Shown one piece after another: positions 4,294 through 29,496 of a stretch of DNA of 39,557 nt. The stretch's first letter is position 1, and the number at the start of each line of letters is the position of its first letter. This DNA is from Collimonas antrihumi (lineage in GTDB: Bacteria; Pseudomonadota; Gammaproteobacteria; Burkholderiales; Burkholderiaceae_D), in contig NZ_JAGQED010000034.1 of NCBI RefSeq assembly GCF_018304965.1, positions 1-39,557 on the forward strand. Reading direction: 5' to 3'. Position numbers and translations under genes: made by a program. A model generated the notes under the pieces. It made no database searches and was not told the DNA's origin. It saw only the letters and a program-made list of their open reading frames with translations.

Positions 4294-4335
4294 TTACTTA
4301 TTTACCTACTTATTTACCTACTTATTTACCTACTT
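4294..4335. repeat. 12-bp tandem repeat across a stop codon
   Basis: Units of the form CTACTTATTTAC recur about three and a half times in a row, with a degenerate unit at the left. On the minus strand each unit reads GTAAATAAGTAG and contains TAA and TAG triplets. The stop codon of the lipoprotein gene (4330-4332) lies in the last unit, so the array gives several reserve stops and sits between the gene and its terminator. Confidence 0.85.
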
Positions 4336-6117
4336 AACAGTCACAATCCCCTGGACACCCAAACCGCTCACCGGTGGCTGATTGGCAGCGGTAACCAGAA
4401 CAGACAACCCTGTCGCAGGGGTGGTGTCCTGTTTGCGCAAATCGAGATTGGACATGACAAATTTCACGTTGAAAGTGCCTTTGAGGTTTTGCAAATTGGT
4501 GAACACCGTACTCTGGTTGCCTGGCTGCGCCTGAATCCCCGCGAGCAAGCGATTGAACAAGATGCCCATATTGAAGTTGACAGCATTGGATGGGCCGACT
4601 GAAATCGAATTTGCAGCTACATTGTTCAGCGTCAGGTTAGCCGTCACGCCGCTAGCGGTCTTGCCGTAGATGTATACCTTGGCCCCTGCCGGTACGGACG
4701 CGGATACCTGATTGCTGGCATCGACTGCGATATTCACTGTATCGATCGACATCTGCAATACTCGCCCGCTGGCGCCAGTGTCCGTCAATTCCAGCGCCAT
4801 ACCCACCGTGGTCGCCTTGACACCGCTGGCGTTAACCGGGATCGGTGTGCCATGAACAACAAACGTGAATCCGACCGTATCAAGAGAAGCCTGTGTAGCG
4901 CCGGTCACGGTCAAACCGCTGGTGAACTGGCTAAGTGTGTAGGTTGTTCCGTTGAGAGCGATCTGGTCGTTTTGGATGGACAGATAATTGGACGGAGTAT
5001 TTAAGGTGCTCGTATCCAATGTCACCGGCGTGCCGGAATTGGTCGACTGCGTGGCAACGTCCGCTTTCAGCTTGGTTCCGGCGGCAGACTTCCCGGCCGC
5101 ATCGCCTGCGATGGAAGCAGCAATGAATTGCTGCAGACTTGTGCCCGCAGCAGTCAAATCAACTTTGCCGGCATTCGCCGTTGTCAACAGCGCCGCGATC
5201 TGATTAGCGGCATCCCCAATCGTGGTATCTGCGTGCAATGATTTAGTCAACGCATTGGAGTCGGTGGATTGCGCCAGGGTTTGCGCTCCGGAAGCAATCC
5301 CCGCTGCGGTCAACGCAGCTACGCTCTTCGGGCTGTACGTCCCGATGTTCTGCTTGGTTACGGTCAACGCCGTAGCGGCGCTGGCCGCCACGTTTGTCAG
5401 CGATTGCTGCACGATGCCGTTCACAAGGGAAACATTGACGTTGCCAGTGGCGTCGACCAGCGTTGCTGTCGTATTAGCGGAGAGCGTCTTCACTACCGCC
5501 TGGACCACTTCGCCATATATTGCCTGGATTGCCGACGTGCTGGTATTTTGCGCCAACGTTCCGATAGTATTGGCGATCTGTTGCATGACCTGTTGCACCG
5601 CCAAGGTTTTTTTCTGCAGATCGGCATTCACCAGCGCACCGGCAGCATTCTTCGCTGCAGGGTCGATCTTGGTTACGTCAGTGCCGGCCGGCAGGCCTAA
5701 TGCGGCGGCCAGCTGAGCAGCGGTCAAACCGGTGTTCACCAGCAAAGTGGTCAGCGGCGTGACAACGGTACTGCCGGCTGAAGCTTTGATCACGCCCTTA
5801 AACGGCAGCCCGGTATCGATATTGGTGCCGCCGCTCGCCACAACCGGACTCGAGCATGCCGGTGAAAACGCAAAATCGCCCTGTCCATTGGTAATGACTA
5901 CCACCTCTCCCGCATCGGCTACTCCATTGTTATTGGTGTCGCACAGCACTTGCGCGCTGCTCAGATAGCCGTCCACGACCTTACCTGAAGCTGTAGCTGC
6001 CGCGACTGGCGCAGGTGGAACGGCCGCGCCGTCACCGCCACCGCCGCCGCACGCCGTTAACGTCGATATCGCCAATGTAACAGCCGCCGAGAGTATTGCA
6101 TTTTTCTTATTGAACAT
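4330..6117 (-). CDS. Large secreted lipoprotein with a calcium-loop-like segment
   Basis: The 595-residue product begins with a lipoprotein signal peptide whose lipobox is LTAC, with the modified cysteine at 23, followed by five Gly and an Asp. Glycine at +2 predicts transfer to the outer membrane. Around residues 58-70 is CDTNNNGVADAGE, a dockerin/EF-hand-like Ca-binding loop common in modular surface proteins. The rest is very rich in Ala, Thr, Val and Asn with few charges, consistent with an elongated beta or helical surface protein. The start ATG at 6117 has an AGGGA ribosome site. No enzymatic domain is recognised. Its position beside the EPS locus makes a matrix or surface role possible, but that is only context. 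Confidence 0.75.
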   Translation of the reverse strand: MFNKKNAILSAAVTLAISTLTACGGGGGDGAAVPPAPVAAATASGKVVDGYLSSAQVLCDTNNNGVADAGEVVVITNGQGDFAFSPACSSPVVASGGTNIDTGLPFKGVIKASAGSTVVTPLTTLLVNTGLTAAQLAAALGLPAGTDVTKIDPAAKNAAGALVNADLQKKTLAVQQVMQQIANTIGTLAQNTSTSAIQAIYGEVVQAVVKTLSANTTATLVDATGNVNVSLVNGIVQQSLTNVAASAATALTVTKQNIGTYSPKSVAALTAAGIASGAQTLAQSTDSNALTKSLHADTTIGDAANQIAALLTTANAGKVDLTAAGTSLQQFIAASIAGDAAGKSAAGTKLKADVATQSTNSGTPVTLDTSTLNTPSNYLSIQNDQIALNGTTYTLSQFTSGLTVTGATQASLDTVGFTFVVHGTPIPVNASGVKATTVGMALELTDTGASGRVLQMSIDTVNIAVDASNQVSASVPAGAKVYIYGKTASGVTANLTLNNVAANSISVGPSNAVNFNMGILFNRLLAGIQAQPGNQSTVFTNLQNLKGTFNVKFVMSNLDLRKQDTTPATGLSVLVTAANQPPVSGLGVQGIVTVK

Positions 6118-6278: not shown

Positions 6279-6583
6279 CAACAATGATCGAATGAAGCCA
6301 TCTCAAGGCATCAAAACAAATCTTCAAATACGCTCTGCACCGACGGCATCACCGGTCCTTTTGTTTTGATAGGATCAGGATCGCTGACCAGGTATCCATG
6401 ATGATTTGCCTCTGGGTATTTTTTATTCTTCTGTGGCATTGTTGCCTGCCGGGATTATTGTTTCCAGCCGCGAAATTATCATCGGGCTTTTTGCGCCGAC
6501 TTGACCATGCGTTTCAGTTTTCAGGATATTTTTTTGTAAAGTTTCCAGCGGGCATTTTTGTGCCACGTTTGCAGGTCATCTGC
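6279..6583 (+). repeat. Left copy of a ~300-bp inverted noncoding element
   Basis: Read on the plus strand, this segment aligns by eye along its whole length with the reverse complement of 11123-11450, at roughly 80 percent identity with small indels. The best-preserved blocks are CTGCACCGAC near 6336, CATCACCGGTCCTTTTG near 6347 and GCATTGTTGCCTG near 6436. Differences fall on all codon positions and a one-base indel breaks any shared frame, so it looks noncoding. Its end lies about 240 bases before the wcaJ copy 1 start. Confidence 0.8.
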
Positions 6584-6664
6584 CGGCAATGCCGCTTGCC
6601 AGTCCGACAGCCGATGACATTAGACGGTGTTGCTTAATTACCACTCATCAACACATAAACGTAT

Positions 6665-6684
6665 GTGTAACAGCGTGTAACAGC
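6665..6684. repeat. 10-bp direct repeat upstream of wcaJ copy 1
   Basis: GTGTAACAGC occurs twice head to tail, one helical turn apart, about 140 bases before the wcaJ copy 1 start. A related TATAACAGCG lies just after wcaJ copy 2 near 13242. The spacing suits a regulator half-site pair, but no family is identified. Confidence 0.5.
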
Positions 6685-6824
6685 GCAAAAATGGTAAAAA
6701 GAGTAGAATTATGGCAATGAAGATGGTTTTAAGGCAACATATCGACATCAGTAGTCAATAAAAAGCCCCGTACCAACTACTGCGAATAGTAACAACGGCC
6801 GTTAATTGCAAAAAAATCAATTCC

Positions 6825-8240
6825 ATGTTTCAAGTACAAGCTCCAAACTTCAAAAATCCTTTCGAATTTGAATTGTTGAGGCGCCTGACAGATATCATCT
6901 TGTTAGGAATAGCCGGCCATCTTGCCAGCAATTTTCGCTTCGGCGCCCCGCTCGATCTGACGCTCCCGATTCACGCAGTGCTGCTGTATTTTTGCTGCGC
7001 ACTCGCTTTTTTTGCATTTCCGCACTTCGGCCTGTATGCCTCCTGGCGCGGGCGGTTCATGCCGTTCATGTTCGGCCGTCTTATCCTGTCGTGCGCAATG
7101 GTGCTGACGATCGGCCTGACTTTCGGCTTCCTGATTCACGGCGTAGGCGAGGTATCGCGGCTATGGCTTTTTTATTGGTATTTGACGAGCGTCTCTTTGC
7201 TGGTCCTGTATCGCATCGTCGTCTATGGCGCACTGCGCTTTTTACGCAAAAAGGGCATCAATACCAAACGCGTCGTGATTGTCGGTTACGGTAAAACCGG
7301 ACAGGAAATGCACAAGCGCGCGGTGCAGCAAGATTGGTATGGCTACGAGGTAGCCGCGGTGTATGCCGATGAGAAAGATGCCGCCGCCTTGAACACCTCC
7401 GCTGTAATCCACATTGATACCTTGGAAGGCATCCATGATTATGTGGTGGCAAACCATGTCAATGAAATCTGGATCACCCTGCCGATGAGTGCTTCAGCGC
7501 AGCTGCATGAACTGCAGTATTTGTTGCGTAACACGCTGGTCGACATTCGCTGGATTCCCGATATGTTGGGGCTGCAAATGCTCAGCAAACGCATGGTCGA
7601 TTTCCTCGGGTTGCCTACGGTGGATTTGAATCGCCCGGTTTCCCACGGCATGCGCGGCGGCGTCAAGCACTTGCTCGACAAACTGTTTGCGATAGTCGCG
7701 CTCACCGGCTTGGCTCCCTTGTTTGCGGTGATTGCCGTGTGCATTAAAGCCTCCTCTCCCGGCCCGGTATTCTTCAGGCAGGCCAGGCTCGGCTTGAATG
7801 GCAAGAAGTTCATGGTCTATAAATTCCGCTCCATGAAGGTCCATCAAGAACGCGACACCGTGACACAAGCCACACAGGGCGATCCACGCGTCACCCGGAT
7901 CGGGCAATTTCTCCGGAGCACCAGCTTCGATGAGCTGCCGCAATTCATCAACGTGCTCCTCGGCGACATGTCGGTTGTCGGTCCAAGGCCGCATGCGCTG
8001 AAACACAACGAAATCTATGAAGAACTGCTGGAGCTGTACATGGCGCGGCACCGCGTCAAACCGGGCATCACCGGCTGGGCGCAAATTCATGGCCTGCGCG
8101 GAGAAACGGACACTGTCGACAAGATGGAAAAGCGGGTCGAGTTCGATCTGCATTACATCCAGCACTGGTCGCTCCTGATGGATTTCCGGATCCTGGTCTG
8201 GACCACATTCAGAGGGTGGACGAGCACTAATGCTTACTAA
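6825..8240 (+). CDS. Undecaprenyl-phosphate sugar phosphotransferase, copy 1 (WcaJ/EpsB-like)
   Basis: This is the initiating enzyme of EPS synthesis. It transfers hexose-1-phosphate, usually glucose or galactose, from a UDP-sugar to undecaprenyl phosphate at the inner membrane. The architecture is the polyprenyl glycosylphosphotransferase type: four N-terminal membrane segments (about 20-135), a Rossmann-like cytoplasmic domain (about 145-270, [12 protein letters not shown]), a membrane hairpin (about 285-310), then the catalytic domain with [25 protein letters not shown] and PGITGWAQ. The 471-residue length is normal. No ribosome site is seen; the leader is A-rich, like that of copy 2. The coding sequence is about 98 percent identical to 11808-13223 beyond the first 27 codons, and the identity ends exactly at the stop codon. 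Sugar specificity cannot be read from sequence. Confidence 0.9.
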
Positions 8241-8289
8241 TAACAAAAGCCATTCCGGCGCAGCCGCCCTCGTTTTGTGATCTACTCCA

Positions 8290-9564
8290 ATGTCAGTCGT
8301 TGAGCCTGCGAAGCCAGAGCACACAAGCGTGCAATCAAAGCGTGTCATCTGGGGCGCCGTCATTGGCAATGGCCTGACGACCTACGACTTTACGGTGTAC
8401 AGTTTTTCTGCAGTCATCATCGGCAAACTTTTCTTCCCGTCAGACAGCACATTTTCCTCGCTGCTGCTGTCGCTTCTCACATTTGGCGCAGGGTTCGCCA
8501 TGCGCCCTGTCGGCGCCCTGATCATTGGCAACCTGGCCGACAGCAAGGGCCGCAAAGCGGGACTTACCGTATCCATTGCCTTAATGACGCTGAGCACCGG
8601 CATCATCGCGTTCGTACCGCCCTATTCCTCCATGGGTGCGCTATCCACACTGCTCATCATATTGGCAAGGCTGACGCAAGGCTTCGCGGCCGGCGGCGAA
8701 ATCGGCGTCTCCTCTACTGTGCTGATGGAGTTGGCCCCCAGAGATCGCCGCTGCTATCTGGTCAGCTGGCACGCGGCCAGCCAGGCTGCCGCTGCGCTGC
8801 TCGGTGCGCTGATCGGGGCCGGCACGACGATGCTGACGCCCGCAGCTCTACACCAATGGGGATGGCGCATCCCATTCATGGTCGGCATGCTGATCGGGCC
8901 GGTGGGATGGTATATCCGCCGCCACATGGCGGAGGCGCCGATGAAGGGCAGAGGCAGGTCGTCCCTGAAGACGATGTTGGCGCGGCATCGCGTTGCGCTT
9001 TGCTTCGGCATACTGTCGATGTCGGCGCCCACTGCCTGCATTTACCTCATGGTGTACTACATGCCGACCTATCTGGTCAGGTCATTGCATATGCCGCACA
9101 CCATCAGCCTGCTTTCGGCCTGCCTTTCCAGTGCCCTGCTCTTTGCCGGGACGCCCCTGCTGGCCAAAGTCGCCGACCGGCAACGTCTGCGCAAGCCGAC
9201 GCAATACGTGACGCTGATCAGCAGCATCGTGCTGGTATATCCGGTTTTCCTGCTATTGACTTATGGGGTCGGGGAAATGCTCTCACTGCTGATCATCGGG
9301 GCATATACGGCGCTGGCGTTGTGCAACAACGCCGCTACCAGAGTGATGCTGATGGAAGCCTTTCCGCTTCATCATCGGGCGACTGGCATGGCGACAATCT
9401 ACAGCATAGGCACCGTGATTTTCGGTAGCTTTTGCCCCTTTATCGTGACCTGGCTGATCGGCGTGACCGGTAACCCCATGGCCCCCGCGTGGTATCTGCT
9501 GGCAGCCTTATGCGTCAGCCTGTTCGCCCTGCTCTTGTTTCCGGATGCGGTTGAAGATTACTGA
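8290..9564 (+). CDS. MFS transporter, metabolite:H+ symporter (MHS) type
   Basis: This inner-membrane carrier of 424 residues has about 12 hydrophobic segments. The loop between segments 2 and 3 carries the MFS signature GNLADSKGRK, and the AARLTQGFAAGGEIG-like block after segment 4 (visible as ARLTQGFAAGGEIGV) is typical of the MHS subfamily of dicarboxylate, citrate, shikimate and proline/betaine carriers. The substrate cannot be assigned. The gene lies 49 bases after wcaJ copy 1 and converges on the AraC gene, with the REP-like element between them. It is not an obvious EPS function and may have arrived with the AraC gene between the two wcaJ copies. Confidence 0.85.
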   Translation: MSVVEPAKPEHTSVQSKRVIWGAVIGNGLTTYDFTVYSFSAVIIGKLFFPSDSTFSSLLLSLLTFGAGFAMRPVGALIIGNLADSKGRKAGLTVSIALMTLSTGIIAFVPPYSSMGALSTLLIILARLTQGFAAGGEIGVSSTVLMELAPRDRRCYLVSWHAASQAAAALLGALIGAGTTMLTPAALHQWGWRIPFMVGMLIGPVGWYIRRHMAEAPMKGRGRSSLKTMLARHRVALCFGILSMSAPTACIYLMVYYMPTYLVRSLHMPHTISLLSACLSSALLFAGTPLLAKVADRQRLRKPTQYVTLISSIVLVYPVFLLLTYGVGEMLSLLIIGAYTALALCNNAATRVMLMEAFPLHHRATGMATIYSIGTVIFGSFCPFIVTWLIGVTGNPMAPAWYLLAALCVSLFALLLFPDAVEDY

Positions 9565-9631
9565 CCGCCAAGGATTGCAACACTACGCCGCGTTGTAATG
9601 CCGTTCAGTTGAGACGCCAGAGATATCTCCC

Positions 9632-10846
9632 TCATGCGTCGTTCCCGCGAACGCGGGAATCCATTTTCATTGTTTCACTCGGTAATTTGGATCCCCGCGT
9701 TCGCGGGGATGACGGAGCCGCCATGGCGGCTGGCCACGTCATATCACTTAACTGAACGGCATTGCCGCCGCGTTGCGTTTTTTCACCAGCACCTGCAGCA
9801 TTATTCTCGATGTCATTCGAGATACCCCACAACGCCATCGCGCGCAAATCCTGCGGCGACATTTCATAGGCCCGTCTAAAGGCGCGCGTAAAATCCGAAG
9901 CGCTGTTAAAGCCCAGTCCATACGCAATTTTCGATACAGGCAGGTTCGGAAACCTGACCAGTTCGGTGGCTGCCTCGCGTAGCCGGCAATTGCGAATATA
10001 GGCGCCGAGACCGCCTTCGTGTTCAAACAGACGGTACATGGTCGGGCGCGGCAGTTGCAATGCATCCAGCAGACTCGCGGGAGAGAGCGCGGCTTGATGG
10101 AGGTTGGCCTGGACATAGCGCCGTGCCTTGTCAAACATGGCCGCGCGAACCGCAGCGCGCGCATTGCCGCTAAGACTGGCCTGTTTGCCGAATGCGGCGA
10201 GCAGTAGCTGGACACTGCTATCGAGGGCTTTATTTGCTTCGCTTGCACTTATGCCCGGCAGGTTTTTGGCAAGCGCAGCCACATGCTCGACGAGCAGTCC
10301 CGTCAGCGGCGTGGTGTTTTCAAAGACACGGCCGTGAATCGATTCTGCATGAGGCAAGGCGGCTTCTACATTTGCGCGCGGTACAAACAACGTCAGCACC
10401 CGGCAGGAACTGCGATGCATGCGCACCGGCTGATTCATGTCCAGCGCAACAATGCTGGCCAAGGGGCGCTTGCCATTTCTGCTGCGTGGCGCGTGGACTC
10501 CCCCTATGGATTCTATCCCCCCATCCGTGAATACATGAAAAGCATAATCGCGTATGTTATCCGTGGAGATGCGCGCCACTGAACGCCTCAGCAATAGCGC
10601 GTCGGAAACGCAGTCGGTGAATACCCGATCGCCAATTCTGTAACGATCAATTGACGCATTGAATGGCATCTCGAGTTGCGCCAATGACGGCAGCACATCG
10701 ATAACATGGCCGACCCGGTCGCGCCAGGCGAGCAGACGTCGTTGCGGCAGTTCACCCTTCACGTCAAAGCGATCCAGTTTTAAGTTGCCGCCCGGCAAAA
10801 TATTGCCATGCGCATTGTCGTTTTTTGCACTATCCATCATCGTCAT
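9632..10846 (-). CDS. AraC-family transcriptional regulator with a repeat-encoded tail
   Basis: The N-terminal half (about 40-220) resembles the AraC-binding-like sensor domain of NphR/FeaR-type regulators. The C-terminal half (about 235-345) is the double helix-turn-helix DNA-binding domain, with the recognisable LPRPTMYRLFE first helix region and KIAYGLGFNSASDFTRAFRRAYEMSP second motif (shown here by its key residues I-GF-S-FRRAF-like). The final 30 or so residues (SSPRTRGSK ... DSRVRGNDA) are encoded by the REP-like inverted repeat at 9637-9714 and are not part of the family. The start ATG at 10846 lacks a clear ribosome site. Its target may be the convergent MFS gene or a wcaJ copy; the sequence alone does not decide this. 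Confidence 0.85.
   Translation of the reverse strand: MTMMDSAKNDNAHGNILPGGNLKLDRFDVKGELPQRRLLAWRDRVGHVIDVLPSLAQLEMPFNASIDRYRIGDRVFTDCVSDALLLRRSVARISTDNIRDYAFHVFTDGGIESIGGVHAPRSRNGKRPLASIVALDMNQPVRMHRSSCRVLTLFVPRANVEAALPHAESIHGRVFENTTPLTGLLVEHVAALAKNLPGISASEANKALDSSVQLLLAAFGKQASLSGNARAAVRAAMFDKARRYVQANLHQAALSPASLLDALQLPRPTMYRLFEHEGGLGAYIRNCRLREAATELVRFPNLPVSKIAYGLGFNSASDFTRAFRRAYEMSPQDLRAMALWGISNDIENNAAGAGEKTQRGGNAVQLSDMTWPAAMAAPSSPRTRGSKLPSETMKMDSRVRGNDA
9637..9714. repeat. REP-like inverted repeat pair (BIME-like)
   Basis: Two near-palindromes face each other: one around TTCCCGCGAACGCGGGAA (9637-9663) and one around CCCCGCGTTCGCGGGG (9688-9714). Each arm is about 27 bases and is the approximate reverse complement of the other. 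This is the widespread extragenic palindrome with the ATTCCCGCG core found in many betaproteobacteria. A partial copy lies at 39424-39442. It sits between convergent genes but overlaps the 3' end of the AraC gene. Confidence 0.85.
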
Positions 10847-11122
10847 TGGCGCATCGCACTGAGACAGTGCGGACAGTGCGATTTAACCGGCACACATCCC
10901 GCACACATTAATGAACAAGCGGGATTGCGGGTTCTGCCGCCTCTCGTTGCTCATGCTTCCTGACAAGTATCATGCCACACCAATGCCATGTGCATTTCGC
11001 AATTCTTTAGCCCGCCCCATCTGCCATGGCAGCCGGATATGCAAGGTGTTGTTTTTCAGTCCGCGCAAGCAACAAAAACAACAATAAAAACAACAAAACA
11101 ATGAAAGCAATTTCTCGGATTT

Positions 11123-11450
11123 TGGCCAGATGGTCCGCAAACGCGGCACAAAAATGCCCTATGGAAACTTTGAAAAAAAATATCCTCAAAACTGATACAC
11201 ACGGTCAAGTCTGTAGGAAAAATCCTACGATAATTTTGCGGCCGGAAACAATAATCCCGACAGGCAACAATGCCGCAGAATAATAAAAATGCCCGGAGGA
11301 AACTCATCATGGGTGCCTGGCCGGCGATCCGATCAAAAGGACCGGTGATGCTGTCGGTGCAGATTGTATTTGTGAAGATGTGTTTTGATTTTTTTTGATT
11401 TTTTTTTGATTTTTTTGATGCTTTGAGAAGACTTCATTCCGTCATTGTTA
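11123..11450 (-). repeat. Right copy of the ~300-bp inverted noncoding element
   Basis: This is the inverted partner of 6279-6583. Relative to the left copy it carries extra ATCAAAAAAA-type units at one end and diverges beyond about 11123, where a caa-rich stretch follows. Read on the minus strand it leads towards the AraC gene about 275 bases away, just as the left copy leads towards wcaJ copy 1. Relative to wcaJ copy 2 it is backwards. Confidence 0.8.
11383..11420. repeat. T-rich slippage tract
   Basis: Four consecutive units of the form GATT(T)n with seven to nine T occur in a row. The left copy of the surrounding element has only one such unit, so this looks like local slipped-strand expansion. 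Its length may vary between isolates. Confidence 0.7.
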
Positions 11451-11606
11451 CGTTACATGTTACGTATCAAACCGGACGTGATGATCAAGGTCCGATGCGT
11501 GAGCTGATTATTTGAAACTGCTTTTAGCCTTGATTTTTAAGAAAAATTTCCATTTTCCACAAAATGTATTGCGCTACAGAAATTTCTATTCTGAATGAAT
11601 TTCCGG

Positions 11607-11622
11607 CTGGCACGCTCTTTGC
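11607..11622 (+). promoter_or_regulatory. Sigma-54 (RpoN) -24/-12 promoter sequence upstream of wcaJ copy 2
   Basis: CTGGCACGCTCTTTGC matches the RpoN consensus (TGGCACG-N4-TTGC) with the required GG-N10-GC spacing (GG at 11609-11610, GC at 11621-11622). Transcription would start near 11634 and leave a leader of about 175 bases before wcaJ copy 2. No equivalent perfect match was found upstream of wcaJ copy 1. An enhancer-binding activator gene is not in the window. Confidence 0.65.
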
Positions 11623-11807
11623 GGAACGACCGTTGACTGGGCGGTTATCTGCAGCATCAAAAAAGGGAAAAACAAGATCATGAGAGCGTGGAAAAAATTG
11701 GGCAGCCGGCGGCATTCAAATGATGGGAAGTATTGCCAATTGATTGGGGCGGCATTCATGCAGTACTCGTCACGACCGGCTATCGATAACAAAAAAAATC
11801 AAATCCC

Positions 11808-13223
11808 ATGTTTCCAATAAAACTTCCCAGCTTCAAAGGCCCAGCCGAATTTGAATTGTTAGGGCGCCTGACGGATATCCTCGTGCTAGGAATAGCCGGC
11901 CATCTTGCCAGCAATTTTCGCTTCGGCGCCCCGCTCGATCTGACGCTCCCGATTCACGCAGTGCTGCTGTATTTTTGCTGCGCACTCGCTTTTTTTGCAT
12001 TTCCGCACTTCGGCCTGTATGCCTCCTGGCGCGGGCGGTTCATGCCGTTCATGTTCGGCCGTCTTATCCTGTCGTGCGCAATGGTGCTGACGATCGGTCT
12101 GATTTTCGGCTTCCTGATTCACGGCGTAGGTGAGGTATCGCGGCTATGGCTTTTTTATTGGTATCTGACCGGCGTCTCTTTGCTGGTCCTGTATCGCATC
12201 GTCGTCTATGGCGCATTGCGCTTTTTACGCAAAAAGGGCATCAATACCAAACGCGTCGTGATTGTCGGTTACGGTAAAACCGGGCAGGAAATGCACAAGC
12301 GCGCGGTGCAGCAAGATTGGTATGGCTACGAGGTAGCCGCGGTGTATGCCGATGAGAAAGATGTCGCCGCCTTGAACACCTCCGCTGTAATCCACATTGA
12401 TACCTTGGAAGGCATCAATGATTATGTGGTGGCAAACCATGTCAATGAAATCTGGATCACCCTGCCGATGAGTGCTTCAGCGCAGCTGCATGAACTGCAG
12501 TATTTGTTGCGCAACACGCTGGTCGACATTCGCTGGATTCCCGATATGTTGGGGCTGCAAATGCTCAGCAAACGCATGGTCGATTTCCTCGGGTTGCCTA
12601 CGGTGGATTTGAATCGCCCGGTTTCCCACGGCATGCGCGGCGGCGTCAAGCACTTGCTCGACAAACTGTTTGCGATAGTCGCACTGACCGGCTTGGCTCC
12701 CTTGTTTGCAGTGATTGCAGTGTGCATTAAAGCCTCCTCTCCCGGCCCGGTATTCTTCAGGCAGGCCAGGCTCGGCTTGAATGGCAAGAAATTCATGGTC
12801 TATAAATTCCGCTCCATGAAGATCCATCAAGAACACGACACCGTGACACAAGCCACACAGGGCGATCCGCGCGTCACCCGGATCGGGCAATTTCTCCGGA
12901 GCACCAGCTTCGATGAGCTGCCGCAATTCATCAACGTGCTCCTCGGCGACATGTCGGTTGTCGGGCCAAGGCCGCATGCGCTGAAACACAACGAAATCTA
13001 TGAAGAACTGCTGGAGCTGTACATGGCGCGGCACCGCGTCAAACCGGGCATCACCGGCTGGGCGCAAATTCATGGCCTGCGCGGAGAAACGGACACTGTC
13101 GACAAGATGGAAAAGCGGGTCGAGTTCGATCTGCATTACATCCAGCACTGGTCGCTCCTGATGGATTTCCGGATCCTGGTCTGGACCACATTCAGAGGAT
13201 GGACGAGCACTAATGCCTATTAA
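11808..13223 (+). CDS. Undecaprenyl-phosphate sugar phosphotransferase, copy 2 (WcaJ/EpsB-like)
   Basis: This has the same architecture and the same 471-residue length as copy 1, with all catalytic motifs intact ([33 protein letters not shown]). Beyond about residue 28 only a handful of residues differ from copy 1: T/I near 101, S/G near 121, A/V and H/N in the Rossmann-like domain, and V/I and R/H in the catalytic domain. The first 27 codons are clearly more diverged ([16 protein letters not shown] against [16 protein letters not shown]). The leader is A-rich with no clear ribosome site. Upstream is a sigma-54 sequence at 11607-11622, which copy 1 lacks, so the two copies may be expressed under different conditions. 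I see no inactivating change in either copy. Confidence 0.9.
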
Positions 13224-13600
13224 TATTTTATGTGGGCAAATGTATAACAGCGTTAAAATATATGTGTTTTGCGCAACAAATCACAAATATCGGTTCAAAA
13301 GATCGCCACGATCTTGCGGAAAATAATCAAGTCATTGATTTTAAATGATATTTCTTCCGAACCAAAAATAATTCCATGTAGAAACTAACAATAACTAACA
13401 ATTAATCCTCTGCCTATGCGAACAATCTGCTGAGAATAATTCGTAAATATCGCCATAAATAACGCCTAAACAGCGCGAAAAACATACGAAAAAACAACAA
13501 ACGAACAACACCCGAACAACACTAAAACAACGCAAAAACAGCGCCATATCGATCATTCCGAATGGCAACATTGGCGCGCAACAACAAAAAGCAGAATTTC
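13224..13600. other. AT-rich intergenic region after wcaJ copy 2
   Basis: No gene is seen. The first part holds a perfect hairpin (AAGATCG at 13299-13305 with CGATCTT at 13309-13315) nested in a longer region where GGTTC (13292-13296) could pair with GAACC (13359-13363). The second part (about 13470-13550) is an A-rich run of AACAAC-type repeats. These may form the 3' end of wcaJ copy 2 and the leader of the gmm operon. Confidence 0.45.
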
Positions 13601-13710
13601 ATGTCCAGAACAAAATACGCAACTTCAACAGCCCTGCCAAATTTGAAATGTTGCGGTGCCTTGCAAATATTGTCATGCCCGGGCGCCATCGTTCATGGAT
13701 AACAACAGCC
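13601..13710 (+). pseudogene. Remnant 5' end of a third wcaJ-type gene
   Basis: From the ATG at 13601 the DNA aligns with the first 80 or so bases of both intact wcaJ copies. After a one-base deletion the frame starting at 13621 reads NFNSPAKFEMLRCLANIV, matching [18 protein letters not shown] of copy 1. The similarity stops near 13685. It is followed at once by GATAACAACAGCCATTCC (from 13698), which resembles the bases just after the copy 1 stop codon (AATAACAAAAGCCATTCC, from 8239). The simplest reading is a third copy that lost nearly its whole body by internal deletion. The second part of the match is short and less certain. Confidence 0.7.
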
Positions 13711-13790
13711 ATTCCTCGCTAGACATCTGCGCACATCAAAGCGCTGAGTTTTCACACCAGGTGAACGCGAACATCCTGCGTGAGGATAGC

Positions 13791-14267
13791 GTGCCTGCCT
13801 CCGCAACCACGGCATTTCTCGATGCCGGCACGTTTGCAGCCGTGATAGCCAGTACACCACTGATAGCCATTGATCTGATTGTGGAAGATGAGCATGGCGC
13901 GGTACTGCTTGGCCTGCGCAACAATCCGCCGGCGCAAGGTTACTGGTTCGTGCCCGGCGGACGTATCCGCAAAGACGAAACGCGCAACGATGCCTTTGCC
14001 CGCCTGGCGCAAGAAGAGTTGGGACTACAGGCTGTCATGACACAAAGCCGGTGCGTCGGCATCTACGAGCATTTTTATGACACCAATTTCAACGGCACCC
14101 CAGGCGCGACCACGCATTACATCGTGCTGGCCTATTGCCTGCGCATAAAACGTGAATCGCTGCAATTACCGCTCGAACAGCATAGCCAATACATCTGGAT
14201 GCAGCGGGATCAGATAGTGCAGCGCGCCGACGTACATCCCTACGCCCAAGCCTATTTCTTGAATTGA
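13791..14267 (+). CDS. gmm: GDP-mannose mannosyl hydrolase (Nudix)
   Basis: Gmm (WcaH/NudD) hydrolyses GDP-mannose and GDP-glucose to GDP and the free sugar, and may tune the GDP-mannose pool. The protein follows E. coli Gmm closely: FAAVIASTPLIAIDLIVED, GYWFVPGGRI, KDET, and ENF-like HFYDTNF...TTHYIVL. The Nudix box is the variant typical of this family, with Leu after Arg where most Nudix enzymes have RE. The frame stays open to 13656, but the GTG at 13791 has GAGGA just upstream and gives 158 residues, the normal length. The longer forms start inside the wcaJ remnant. It is first in the gmm-manC-gmd-fcl-ugd run. Confidence 0.88.
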   Translation: MPASATTAFLDAGTFAAVIASTPLIAIDLIVEDEHGAVLLGLRNNPPAQGYWFVPGGRIRKDETRNDAFARLAQEELGLQAVMTQSRCVGIYEHFYDTNFNGTPGATTHYIVLAYCLRIKRESLQLPLEQHSQYIWMQRDQIVQRADVHPYAQAYFLN

Positions 14268-14273
14268 GCCACA

Positions 14274-15692
14274 ATGAAGCTTCCACTTATTCCCGTCATT
14301 CTCTGCGGCGGCTCCGGCACCCGGCTGTGGCCCCTCTCCCGCGAGACATATCCCAAGCAGTTTTTGCGCTTATTGGGAGAAGAAACCCTGCTCCAGCAAA
14401 CGATGCTGCGCCTCAGGGAGATAGATGGAATGGGGCCGCCCTTGATGGTGTGCAACGAATCCTCACGTTTTGTGGCGGCAGAACAGCTGCGCGAGATCGG
14501 CATCGACAACGCCCAGATTCTGCTGGAGCCGGTGCGCCGCAATACCGCCCCCGCCATTGCCGTAGCCGCGGTGCATGCGACCGCCAATGGCGAAGACCCG
14601 ATCCTGATGGTACTGCCATCCGACCATGTGATTAAAGATCACGCCGCCTTTAACAATGCGATCCAAATAGCCAAGGACTCGGCCGCTAAAGGTAACCTGG
14701 TCACCTTCGGCATTACTCCGCTAGGTCCTGAGACAGGTTACGGCTATATCCGCGCCGGCGCCGCTGCGCCCGGCCAGGCCCAGCCAGTGTTGCAGTTCGT
14801 GGAAAAACCGGATCGCGCCACCGCCGAACAATACCTTGCCAGCGGCAATTACTACTGGAATAGCGGCATGTTCGTATTCCGCGCCAGCCGCTATCTGGAA
14901 GAGCTGACGCGCTACCAGCCCGATATGGTCGCAGCCTGCCGCGAAGCCGTAGCTTTGGCGCAAAAAGACTTCGACTTCATCCGCATCGACGGCCCGGCCT
15001 ATGCCGCCAGCCCGGACAACGCGATCGACTATGCAGTGATGGAGCGCACCGAGAGCGCCTGCGTAGTCGCAATGGAAGCCGGCTGGAGCGATATCGGTAC
15101 CTGGGCATCGGTATGGGAAGCTGCAGACAAAGATACCGACAACAACGCCACCCAAGGCGACGTCATGCTGCAAGACTGCGAAGATTGCCTGGTGCACGGC
15201 ACCACCCGCCTGATCACGGCAGTCGGCTTGCGCAATACGGTGATTGTAGAAACCTCCGATGCGCTGCTCATCATGGACACCGAGCGCGCGCAAGACACCA
15301 AAAAGCTGGTCGCGCAACTGATCAAGACGAAACGCTCGGAAGCATCCCTGCACCGCGAGGTATCCCGCCCCTGGGGCTCTTACGATTCGATCGGCAGCGG
15401 CAAGCGCTTTCAAGTCAAGCGGATTACGGTCAAACCCGGCGCCAAGCTGTCGCTGCAAATGCACCATCACCGTGCCGAGCATTGGGTGGTCGTCAAGGGC
15501 ACGGCCAAAATCACCAATGGCGATCAGGATTACCTGCTGACTGAAAATCAATCCACCTTTATCCCGGTGGGCGTCGTGCACTCCCTGGAAAACCCCGGAA
15601 AGATACCGCTGGAACTGATCGAAATCCAGTCTGGTGCGTATTTGGGGGAAGACGACATAGTGCGGCTGCAAGACCGTTATGGCCGGACCTGA
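14274..15692 (+). CDS. manC: Mannose-1-phosphate guanylyltransferase / mannose-6-phosphate isomerase
   Basis: This bifunctional type II enzyme makes GDP-mannose from mannose-1-phosphate and GTP, and its C-terminal cupin domain interconverts fructose-6-P and mannose-6-P. The nucleotidyltransferase signature GGSGTRLWPLSR lies at about 12-23, with KQFL after it, and FVEKPD near 178 is the sugar-binding motif. The cupin region (about 360-472) has RPWGSY, LSLQMHHHRAEHW and the metal-binding His and Glu residues. The 472-residue length is standard for AlgA/XanB/ManC. It starts six bases after the gmm stop. It feeds Gmd and Fcl downstream. A separate phosphomannomutase is needed but not encoded here. 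Confidence 0.95.
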   Translation: MKLPLIPVILCGGSGTRLWPLSRETYPKQFLRLLGEETLLQQTMLRLREIDGMGPPLMVCNESSRFVAAEQLREIGIDNAQILLEPVRRNTAPAIAVAAVHATANGEDPILMVLPSDHVIKDHAAFNNAIQIAKDSAAKGNLVTFGITPLGPETGYGYIRAGAAAPGQAQPVLQFVEKPDRATAEQYLASGNYYWNSGMFVFRASRYLEELTRYQPDMVAACREAVALAQKDFDFIRIDGPAYAASPDNAIDYAVMERTESACVVAMEAGWSDIGTWASVWEAADKDTDNNATQGDVMLQDCEDCLVHGTTRLITAVGLRNTVIVETSDALLIMDTERAQDTKKLVAQLIKTKRSEASLHREVSRPWGSYDSIGSGKRFQVKRITVKPGAKLSLQMHHHRAEHWVVVKGTAKITNGDQDYLLTENQSTFIPVGVVHSLENPGKIPLELIEIQSGAYLGEDDIVRLQDRYGRT

Positions 15693-19562: not shown

Positions 19563-20857
19563 CTACCAAGAACAAGCTCTCCCATCGAGTGATTTCCAGT
19601 GTATTTGCGCACCTGTTTTCCCAGGGGGTAACGATCCTGACGCAACTTGGATCACTTCCGGTTTTCCTGCATTACTGGGATATGCAACGCTACGGGGTAT
19701 GGTTAATGCTGTCGGCCTTACCTATTTATCTATCTATGGCTGACGTCGGCATTATGGCCGTAACAGCGAATAAAGTTACCATGCTCGCTGCCAAGGGCGA
19801 TAACGAACACGCCAATAGAGTTTTTCAGAGTGCGCTTGCGCTTGTTCTTGTAGTGTTTTCGCTCGTTGCAATTGCGGCGGTAATTCTTATTTGGTCACTT
19901 GACATCCAGATGCTCGCGCATCCTGGCTCTCGAATTGCCCTTACTTGCCTCACTATTGCAGCGCTCACAACTGCGTTTGGTGGATTGCTTGATGCTGCAT
20001 ACAGGTCTGCTGGGCAATATGCAAAGGTTACCTATTATCTAACAACCACCAGAATCGTTGAGTGGTTAGGTTCTATATTGGGTGTTGCGCTCTTTGGCGG
20101 TATTGAGCATGCTGCCATCGGTTATTTGATAGGTCGTTTGGCGTCAACAATCGTTATTCAACGATTAGCACAACGCGAGGTACAAGCCATCAAATGGAGT
20201 TTTTGCGGTGCTAATTGGAAAGATATGCGTGAAATGCTGCGCCCAGGAATATCTCTTTTTATCTTTCCCATCGCAACGGCTCTTAACGTTCAAGGAATGA
20301 TTTTACTAATCGGCAATACGATGGGCCCCACAATTGCTGCGCTGTTCAACACGTATCGCGTCCTGACACGAGTTATGGTTCAACTACCAACGTTATTTGG
20401 GAAATCACTGTGGCCTGAATTGTCGAGACTATACGCACTAAAGGAGCATGCAAAAATTCACTCGATATATATCAAAGCTACAGCGGTGACCATTGGAATG
20501 AGTATAATTTGCGCGATTTTTTTATATTTCTTTGGCGAGCAAATACTCGCGATTTGGTCGCACGGAAAAATTCACTTTCAGGCGAACATATTTGGTGTGT
20601 TGCTGATCTCAGCGGCATTAACTGGTTTTTGGCAGATTGGCATGGTGGTCCTAGCCTCTACAAATCGCCACCAAAAGCTGTCTATCGCGTTTCTCTTGGC
20701 CTCTTTATCTTCCTTTGGACTTGCAAGTGCCCTAGTCCCAAAGTACGGTCTTATGGGTATAGCAGGATCTCTTATTCTGGTAGAAGTCGTAATGATCTGG
20801 GCAACATTTATCTTTATTCTGAAGGCCCAACGGCCATTGGTTTTAAATACCTTATGA
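19559..20857 (+). CDS. Oligosaccharide flippase (Wzx-like, MATE/MVF superfamily)
   Basis: The 432-residue integral membrane protein has about 12 hydrophobic segments and the PST/MVF layout of Wzx translocases. Its N-terminal VFAHLFSQGVTILTQLGSLP helix is followed by YWDMQRYGVWLMLSALP, a pattern common in lipid-linked oligosaccharide flippases. Its role would be to flip the undecaprenyl-linked repeat unit across the inner membrane before Wzy polymerises it. Its place right after the sugar-nucleotide genes and before wzy supports this. The gene is AT-richer than ugd, marking the start of the variable core. Confidence 0.85.
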   Translation: MTTKNKLSHRVISSVFAHLFSQGVTILTQLGSLPVFLHYWDMQRYGVWLMLSALPIYLSMADVGIMAVTANKVTMLAAKGDNEHANRVFQSALALVLVVFSLVAIAAVILIWSLDIQMLAHPGSRIALTCLTIAALTTAFGGLLDAAYRSAGQYAKVTYYLTTTRIVEWLGSILGVALFGGIEHAAIGYLIGRLASTIVIQRLAQREVQAIKWSFCGANWKDMREMLRPGISLFIFPIATALNVQGMILLIGNTMGPTIAALFNTYRVLTRVMVQLPTLFGKSLWPELSRLYALKEHAKIHSIYIKATAVTIGMSIICAIFLYFFGEQILAIWSHGKIHFQANIFGVLLISAALTGFWQIGMVVLASTNRHQKLSIAFLLASLSSFGLASALVPKYGLMGIAGSLILVEVVMIWATFIFILKAQRPLVLNTL

Positions 20858-27954: not shown

Positions 27955-29496
27955 ATGATCTATTTTCCCTCATTTCACCGCTTCAGTACCTACATAACAA
28001 TTACGCTTTTCGTTTTAGGTATGGGCGCTACACCCATAGTTAACACCGCACCCGCTGAGCTTGACGTGAACACTTGGCAGCAAGTGAAAGCAGATGCTGA
28101 ACGTTTCGTCCAGTTAGAATCACCGAAAGCTGTGCATCCGTTTGAACGACATACACCAACGCTCAATTCACAAAAGAAAGTAATTGCGCATTACTTTCCA
28201 ACATTTCCACTGTCCCTCGATAATCAGCCTACGGAGAATGATTATTACGCACGCAATTATTTAAAACGATCGGGTGAAAATAGAAAATTTGCTGCGCAGG
28301 GGGGATATCTTCGCGAAAGACCGTTACCGACAGTTGTATGGCCAGCAAACAGAGCTGCCGAGACGAACCTTGCAATCGAAGTGCTGAGAGCCGAAGCGAT
28401 AGGGATAGATGCCTTCGGAATTGATCTTCTCGAAATCCGTGAAGGTCGGCAGTGGACGACAGCATTGACCTTACTCAATGTGACGCAGCAGGTCTCCAAA
28501 ACCTTCCGCATTGTGCCTGAGCCCGATATGTCTGCCTTGAATAACGTCACTGGTGCCGACCTAGAGGACGCGCTTGCGACCTTTTATCTGCATCCCGCCA
28601 GCTTTCACGTTGCTGATGGCCGCCTGCTTGTCATTCCATTCAAAGCGGAGGCTCGACCTGTTGAATTCTGGAAAACGTTAATCACTAACCTTGCGAAACG
28701 GGGCACGCCGATAGCGTTAATCCCGGATTTCCTAAATCCTTCCTCCGCGAACGTCTTTGCTCCGTTCAGTGATGGCATTACGCTTTGGGGTGGGCGTGAC
28801 CCTGCAAGCGCAGACAGCTATCTAAGACTTGCATCAAACATTTCGTCGTTAGGCTACAAAACTTTGATGATACCGGTCGCACCTCAAGACTTCCGTCCAA
28901 AATCTTCATCTGCTTGGGAAGCTCGTAATTCTGAGGCCTTCCGGCGCCAGTGGGCTGCCGCAATTGATTCACATGCGACGTACGCACATCTTTTGACTTG
29001 GAACGACTATTCCGAGGCGACTGAGATATCTCCGTCAAGTGGAACGCAATTTTTCTTTTATGATTTAACCGCATATTTCGTTGAATGGTTCAAAAGTGGT
29101 TCTGCACCGGCCATTACCGAGGATGTCTTGTATTTTTCGCATCGACGCCAGCTCTTTGACCCGCATGCAGCAGAACTCGGCAGCTCAATTCGCCTTGTTG
29201 GCGATACGCCGTTTGTGAACGACATTGAGGTCGTTGCAATGCTTACCAAACCTGGCGACCTCGAAATTGAAAGCGGCGGAAAGCGCACGCGTTTGCATGT
29301 AAATGCGGGGCTAAACGTTCTCCGTGCGCTAGCTGCGGCCGGGAAGCCAACATTCACTCTTTCGCGAAGGGGACGTACTATCCTTAGAAGGGTTAGTGAC
29401 TGGAACATCGATCCTCTTCCGACGAAGGAAGACGCACTGTATGTAGGAGGCTCAACGTCACGTCGTTTTGTCTCAGTTTCGGAGGTCACTGAGTAA
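27955..29496 (+). CDS. Secreted GH71-like (alpha-1,3-glucanase-type) glycosidase
   Basis: The mature part resembles glycoside hydrolase family 71: KKVIAHYFPTFPLSLDN at the start of the barrel, EAIGIDAFGIDLLE (with acidic residues on the strand end), FRIVPEPDMSA, the IPFKAEA and LIPDFLNPSS strands, DGITLWGGRDPAS, and LTWNDYSEATEISPS near the end, the last being the WNDYGES block of the family. The frame stays open back to 27886, but the ATG at 27955 begins a plausible signal peptide (MIYFPSFHRF then a hydrophobic core to about residue 30). That gives about 513 residues and export to the periplasm or beyond. It is last in the plus-strand EPS run and may trim or degrade the polymer. Confidence 0.75.
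   Translation: MIYFPSFHRFSTYITITLFVLGMGATPIVNTAPAELDVNTWQQVKADAERFVQLESPKAVHPFERHTPTLNSQKKVIAHYFPTFPLSLDNQPTENDYYARNYLKRSGENRKFAAQGGYLRERPLPTVVWPANRAAETNLAIEVLRAEAIGIDAFGIDLLEIREGRQWTTALTLLNVTQQVSKTFRIVPEPDMSALNNVTGADLEDALATFYLHPASFHVADGRLLVIPFKAEARPVEFWKTLITNLAKRGTPIALIPDFLNPSSANVFAPFSDGITLWGGRDPASADSYLRLASNISSLGYKTLMIPVAPQDFRPKSSSAWEARNSEAFRRQWAAAIDSHATYAHLLTWNDYSEATEISPSSGTQFFFYDLTAYFVEWFKSGSAPAITEDVLYFSHRRQLFDPHAAELGSSIRLVGDTPFVNDIEVVAMLTKPGDLEIESGGKRTRLHVNAGLNVLRALAAAGKPTFTLSRRGRTILRRVSDWNIDPLPTKEDALYVGGSTSRRFVSVSEVTE

Follow-up and report, generated by a model that had tools for sequence, protein, structure and literature searches.

The window analysed here is a complete contig (C27, NZ_JAGQED010000034.1) of 39,557 bases from Collimonas antrihumi. 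It carries two near-identical copies, A and B, of a wcaJ-type gene for the enzyme predicted to initiate exopolysaccharide (EPS) synthesis, together with the 5′ stub of a third copy, C. The genome to which the contig belongs (G000) is a 4.72 Mb draft in 83 contigs, with completeness and contamination of 99.95 and 0.09, respectively. The three copies and the gene that follows them are listed below, with product lengths in amino acids (aa):

6825–8240, plus strand: copy A, a wcaJ-type initiating phosphoglycosyl transferase gene, 471 aa (CoA_binding_3 and Bac_transf; TIGR03023, 511.9 bits)
11808–13223, plus strand: copy B, a wcaJ-type initiating phosphoglycosyl transferase gene, 471 aa (CoA_binding_3 and Bac_transf; TIGR03023, 507.5 bits)
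13601–13694, plus strand: copy C, the 5′ stub of a third wcaJ without its body, with a 33-codon frame that stops over the gmm start (CATGGATAA), from alignment and translation
13695–14267, plus strand: gmm, GDP-mannose mannosyl hydrolase-like, 190 aa from the ATG at 13695 (NF011963, 188.5 bits; cut-off 146)

To the right of the wcaJ copies, the EPS locus comprises gmm, manC, gmd, an epimerase gene (here termed fcl), ugd, a wzx-like and a wzy-like gene, glycosyltransferase genes and a GH71-family gene, beyond which wzc, wzb and wza lie on the opposite strand. These names were assigned from Pfam families.

Both A and B pass the curated cut-off of TIGR03023 (410.75 bits), and both frames are intact, with 471 codons each and no internal stop. 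By family and domains, A and B are intact WcaJ-type initiating transferases. They resemble the undecaprenyl-phosphate glucose phosphotransferases of the WcaJ/TIGR03023 family, which are large monotopic phosphoglycosyl transferases, in the curated cut-off and in the two Pfam domains, but differ in that two near-identical copies occupy one locus. Against the narrower WcaJ model NF007518, A and B scored 381.8 and 377.6 bits, respectively, short of the required 684. A quick protein tree with 46 rows places the two copies as sisters (100 in the Shimodaira–Hasegawa-like approximate likelihood ratio test), and their nearest neighbours are L008 and L044, which come from one genome. The same genome as the window encodes another wcaJ relative with 70% identity on contig C55, with wza and wzc relatives nearby, and two more distant ones on contigs C22 and C44.

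The original prediction, made from the letters of this DNA, gave the same coordinates for both copies and described about two dozen differences beyond codon 27, a much more diverged 5′ end and a homology that stops exactly at the stop codon. A base-by-base comparison agrees with nearly all of this. Both copies are 1416 nucleotides (nt) long, and their gapless alignment shows 42 differences, 19 of which fall within nt 1–79 and exactly 23 within nt 80–1416 (Fisher p = 2.8e-14), so that the body is 98.3% identical (23/1337 sites differ). The maximum-likelihood single change point is nt 79. At the 3′ end, the match runs on for two bases (TA) past the stop codon, slightly further than predicted, and the flanks then differ. 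At the 5′ end about 15 nt upstream of the ATG match between the copies, with a score that by itself lies within the shuffled range. Further homology among the sequences preceding A, B and C, past these 15 nt, was considered and rejected, as the local scores were within the shuffled range.

The contrast between the two parts of the gene extends to synonymous sites. Codons 1–27 have 0.240 nonsynonymous (dN) and 0.452 synonymous (dS) substitutions per site, and codons 28–471 have a dN of 0.0059 and a dS of 0.056. With these body values, reflecting 6 replacements and 17 silent codon differences, both copies look constrained. Purely synonymous codon differences make up 5/27 codons at the 5′ end and 17/444 in the body (p = 0.006), and the profile is therefore not merely that of a tolerant N-terminus or relaxed amino-acid constraint. 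This bears directly on a simple tandem duplication of one age, in which the N-terminal 27 codons diverged quickly because they are unconstrained or differently selected. The N-terminal residues are indeed poorly conserved, and relatives mostly align only from about residue 8–16, but the roughly eight-fold higher synonymous divergence of the 5′ end largely refutes such a duplication, as do flanks that match over only ≈15 nt upstream and 2 nt downstream. We regard it as very improbable. As divergence is uneven along the gene, with a dS of 0.056 in the body against 0.45 at the 5′ end, and the flanks differ, a simple recent tandem duplication does not fit.

Identity far higher inside a tract than outside it, synonymous sites included, is what gene conversion leaves behind. 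The original prediction had proposed that conversion keeps the two transferases alike while their 5′ ends and promoters differ. The contrast in dS speaks for this, as do the differing promoter regions (that of B being the sigma-54 unit described below); gene conversion as such goes beyond these data, and an equivalent replacement of the body would serve equally well. A recent duplication would also account for a sharp front, if recombination had placed a late copy of one body onto a 5′ stub that was already there, with no long-lived pair involved. C shows that the locus contains a 5′ stub lacking its body, the 5′ boundary falls at one point (nt 79), and the 23 differences in the body show no significant clustering, as would be expected after one event. 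This course would, however, require that A or B was once a stub in addition to C, and the downstream flank shared by A and B is just two bases long, so there is no long flank of the kind that marks a recent copy. We consider it rather unlikely.

The same comparison bears on an assembly error, in which a single gene, or a pair of alleles, came out as two genes or the shared body led to a swap of flanks. The genome is a draft of 83 contigs and the longest identical run between A and B spans 233 nt, which leaves some room for misassembly. Against this, both copies lie within one contig, their flanks are not alike, and the 42 differences between them include only 6 replacements in the body; the completeness and contamination values also argue against it, and exchanged flanks would leave the copy number unchanged. 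An error of this kind appears highly improbable.

The third 5′ remnant, which the original prediction placed just before gmm, is real. Aligned over ≈104 nt, C scored 87 against A and 98.5 against B, where the maxima of 100 shuffles were 43 and 52.5, respectively. Read from its own ATG, C is out of frame relative to A and B and runs directly into the gmm start. As the frame of C (13601–13702) ends over the gmm start codon, the stub may still act as a coupled leader for gmm translation. Over 5′ blocks made up of 25 upstream and about 80 coding nt, identities were 79/102 for A–B, 73/102 for B–C and 68/102 for A–C, all above those of shuffled sequences. These values are far below the 98.3% of the body, and the three fronts therefore look old beside it. 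A special kinship of the stub with L008 was rejected, since C is nearer to both B and A than to L008 (66/105). Global alignment of C with the C55 paralogue gave 56/103 identities and a score of 46.0, near the shuffled maximum of 45.0.

A trace of gmm is also found behind copy A:

8230–8280, plus strand: scar of the gmm 5′ end downstream of copy A, with 16 codons before its stop (8240–8256 compared with the gmm start at 13699–13715)

Nucleotides 8240–8256 match the gmm start at 16/17 positions; elsewhere in the window, with both strands considered, every match falls short of 14/17. A, or its donor, would therefore once have stood in the order wcaJ-gmm. This is the ancestral order that the original prediction had read from the remnant next to gmm. 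We compared it with the loci of five relatives (L008–L012); L013, a distant Bacteroidales match, was set aside, and L008 and L011 derive from the same metagenome-assembled genome. In two of the five, L011 and L012, wcaJ is followed by gmm-manC-gmd-fcl. Two relatives and the gmm scar thus speak for the order, which is not general among the relatives. In L008 (8001–9514), the nearest relative (76%), wcaJ is followed by just the last 37 codons of manC, which are 94.6% identical to those of the window. This tail looks like the scar of a lost wcaJ-manC order.

Copy B is preceded by an enhancer-promoter unit and the remains of another gene:

11447–11464, plus strand: enhancer-like near-palindrome GTTACGTTACATGTTACG upstream of B (18/18 in five genus mates; three sites in the window's own genome)
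11608–11622, plus strand: sigma-54 −24/−12 promoter motif TGGCACGCTCTTTGC, 143 nt past the enhancer (14–15/15 in five genus mates)
11680–11820, plus strand: decayed start of a lipoprotein gene, a 46-codon frame overlapping the start of B (alignment; 18–21 of the first 30 nt shared with genus mates)

The core of sigma-54 promoters is TGGCAC-N5-TTGC, and the motif at 11608–11622 is its sole exact match in the window. When the unit is aligned with those of five genus mates, the palindrome is conserved at 18/18 and the core at 14–15/15 positions, with just 59–67/135 in the spacer between them. The palindrome, with at most one mismatch, is present in 13 of the 15 genus genomes; one of the two genomes that lack it is 86% complete and the other has a size of 1.7 Mb. 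With each site counted once, three sites are found in G000, three in G002 and two in each of the remaining carriers (11 of the 12 carriers besides G000). A total of 28 palindrome sites were read, comprising that of the window, the two others of its own genome and 25 of the genus mates. A sigma-54 motif, searched with two pyrimidine positions left free, follows at all 28 sites and lies 143–145 nt on at 25 of them. All but one of the 27 sites besides that of the window lead into a similar lipoprotein start, the genes of the genus mates being judged by their first residues only; the exception is L105 of G002, which has a different frame. Both other sites in the own genome head genes with PF15984 ("bacterial collagen, middle region"), and on contig C44 the lipoprotein gene is followed by a gene for a ShlB-type transporter. 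RpoN is encoded in the same genome (PF04552, 225.3 bits). As a genus-wide observation, the conserved unit stands before collagen-type lipoprotein genes, mostly at two sites per genome (L085, L086, L092–L115 and L119).

A search with a slightly stricter motif, for which gene starts were placed manually, covered 800 nt upstream of A, 377 nt upstream of C and as much as 800 nt upstream of 16 further wcaJ genes (the C55 paralogue and 15 from relatives); it found no sigma-54 motif in any of them. Sigma-70-like promoters were also scored, with both strands taken together, and gave 5 candidates before A where 2.1 were expected and 4 before gmm where 1.3 were expected, which is too weak to name one in either place.

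Copy B thus looks as if it sits behind the captured and still conserved enhancer-promoter of a lipoprotein gene. Since the unit has been kept while the lipoprotein start decayed, B, perhaps together with the EPS operon, has probably been rewired to RpoN. The genes from B through the GH71-family gene (end at 29496) are all codirectional, and the widest gap between them is the 471 nt from B to gmm. In this gap no plus-strand terminator was listed, both candidates there being on the other strand, and the sigma-54 unit could therefore serve the EPS operon too. Two weak plus-strand terminator candidates lie inside the wzx-like gene, and the total number of candidates in the scan, which ran to position 20000, is below chance level.

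Close second copies of this gene are rare among the genomes searched, in line with the expectation of the original prediction that an EPS locus normally carries one initiating transferase. Matches at E ≤ 1e-100 occur in 10 of the 15 genomes of the genus, with three in G000 and two in G009. Within the family, 59 of 294 genomes match at E ≤ 1e-150, and more than one match occurs in G000, G009 and G106; G000 alone has two on one contig. The same is true of the order, where 8 of 399 genomes match at E ≤ 1e-120 and G000 and G598 have more than one match. The family and order counts consider the best four or five scored candidates per genome, and with such strict cut-offs the counts therefore speak of close paralogues only.

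Our best explanation, which we hold to be moderately probable, is that the bodies of two old copies, A and B, were homogenised by recombination and that B was captured by a sigma-54 enhancer-promoter. We infer the order of events as follows. The ancestral EPS locus would have had a single wcaJ directly before, and overlapping, gmm. Copying within the locus would then have given three genes, A, B and C, whose 5′ ends would have come to differ at about a quarter to a third of their positions. C would subsequently have lost its body, leaving only the stub in front of gmm. At a later stage A and B would have recombined, by gene conversion or an equivalent body replacement in one direction or the other, and the sequence from nt 80 to the stop would have become nearly identical again. 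The recombination would have ended where homology was already poor, so that the N-terminal 27 codons and the promoter remained distinct in each copy. B would have come to lie behind the sigma-54 enhancer-promoter and the decayed start of a collagen-type lipoprotein gene. As a result B, possibly with the codirectional EPS operon, would probably be activated by RpoN and an enhancer-binding protein, alongside the two intact collagen-type lipoprotein genes, and A would be expressed by other means than a sigma-54 unit.

Several observations weigh against this explanation. The 5′ block is short and the N-termini of the WcaJ family are variable. A fresh body on an older 5′ stub, or an import from another strain, would look the same. 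There is no significant signal of a mosaic of conversion tracts in the A–B body (p = 0.28 for the longest identical run), and the 23 body differences give no significant donor direction, L008 agreeing with B at 14, with A at 6 and with neither at 3 (p = 0.12). No pair like A and B on one contig was found in the relatives searched in the genus, family and order, and the age of the duplication is therefore read from the 5′ ends alone. In L009 and L010 wcaJ is followed by manC, without gmm, and neither gmm nor manC was matched in ten stretches of 19–20 kb around the wcaJ genes of genus mates and the C55 paralogue (L024 and L026–L034). The absence of the wcaJ-gmm order from these genus-mate stretches slightly lowers our confidence. 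Sigma-54 motifs with one mismatch are about as frequent in the window as chance predicts (8 where 5.2 were expected), so that only the exact motif with its conserved surroundings counts, and sigma-54 control of B is predicted from sequence only.

Parts of the proposed arrangement are known from other systems. PMC11340318 describes the Caulobacter crescentus initiators HfsE, PssY and PssZ (CC_0166, CC_2384 and CC_2425) as redundant. As predicted for A and B, more than one enzyme there serves the same first step; those genes do not form one locus, whereas the copies described here lie 5 kb apart and have near-identical bodies. For tufA and tufB of Salmonella enterica, another near-identical gene pair, PMC5485169 reports measured conversion, where ours is inferred. 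The tuf copies are 762 kb apart in inverse orientation, unlike A and B, which are direct repeats 4,983 nt apart and could also recombine into a deletion. PMC6053082 reports 26 long-lasting cases of gene conversion in prokaryotes, and a look through its main text met none of the words glycosyltransferase, sugar transferase or exopolysaccharide. We found no paper on gene conversion of an initiating glycosyltransferase and, by titles and the beginnings of abstracts, noticed no report of this arrangement. In Burkholderia cenocepacia the biofilm polysaccharide is under RpoN and BerB, and RpoN is described there as acting through berA (PMC5552954). The likeness lies in sigma-54 and an enhancer-binding protein serving EPS production, as predicted for B. 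The difference from the berA route is that the sigma-54 site here stands directly before the initiating transferase and was seemingly taken from a lipoprotein gene.

Redundant initiators and the conversion of duplicates are thus already known, and the unusual part is the promoter capture. As a biochemical reading, two equal initiators are ordinary; near-identical bodies of which one is under a captured sigma-54 promoter are uncommon and testable. The original prediction had suggested that two copies may give redundancy or condition-specific initiation. Tentatively, we would go further and propose that the EPS operon was recruited through B into a small genus-wide sigma-54 regulon of collagen-type surface lipoproteins. 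Matrix protein and polysaccharide would then start together, A would provide a second, differently timed start, and recombination would keep the enzymes near-identical, so that mainly the timing differs. The locus offers a natural case of a duplicated pathway-committing enzyme with one protein body under two different fronts. The origin of one of these fronts has probably been located, namely the conserved sigma-54 enhancer-promoter of a surface-lipoprotein gene. If this holds, matrix protein and matrix polysaccharide are linked in one regulon, as a testable case of regulatory rewiring by rearrangement.

The gmm scar behind A and the sigma-54 unit before B were not part of the original prediction, nor were an inverted repeat and a gene pair that lie around and between the copies:

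6280–6582, plus strand: inverted-repeat arm 1, between the lipoprotein gene at 4330–6117 and copy A (81% over 273 nt and a 37-nt piece at 86%)
8290–9564, plus strand: major facilitator superfamily (MFS) transporter gene between the copies (MFS_1/Sugar_tr; its relative adjoins an AraC gene in G008, locus L072)
9632–10846, minus strand: AraC-family regulator gene, convergent with the MFS gene (HTH_18; the same convergent pair in L072)
11127–11449, minus strand: inverted-repeat arm 2, between the AraC gene and the enhancer of B (match to arm 1)

In G008, the MFS and AraC pair lies on a different contig from its wcaJ. The inverted repeat of ≈300 nt matched only these two arms in the own genome, and the match ends at the enhancer of B. 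To judge by this pair of genes and the inverted repeat, the locus has therefore been rearranged more than once; we claim no order for the MFS/AraC and inverted-repeat steps. The region 6300–14300 of the window gave no match to plasmid records.

The arms of the inverted repeat face the lipoprotein gene and the sigma-54 unit of B, respectively, as if the fronts of two lipoprotein genes had arisen by inverted copying. In G008, the sequence preceding the AraC gene weakly matches 46 nt of the repeat (E = 7.6e-4). A dispersed repeat at 9595–9765 is found in at least 15 further places of the own genome at 93–99% identity. The 3′ end of the AraC gene extends into this repeat with roughly its final 44 codons, and the similarity of the AraC protein to its G008 relative stops near residue 339 of 404.

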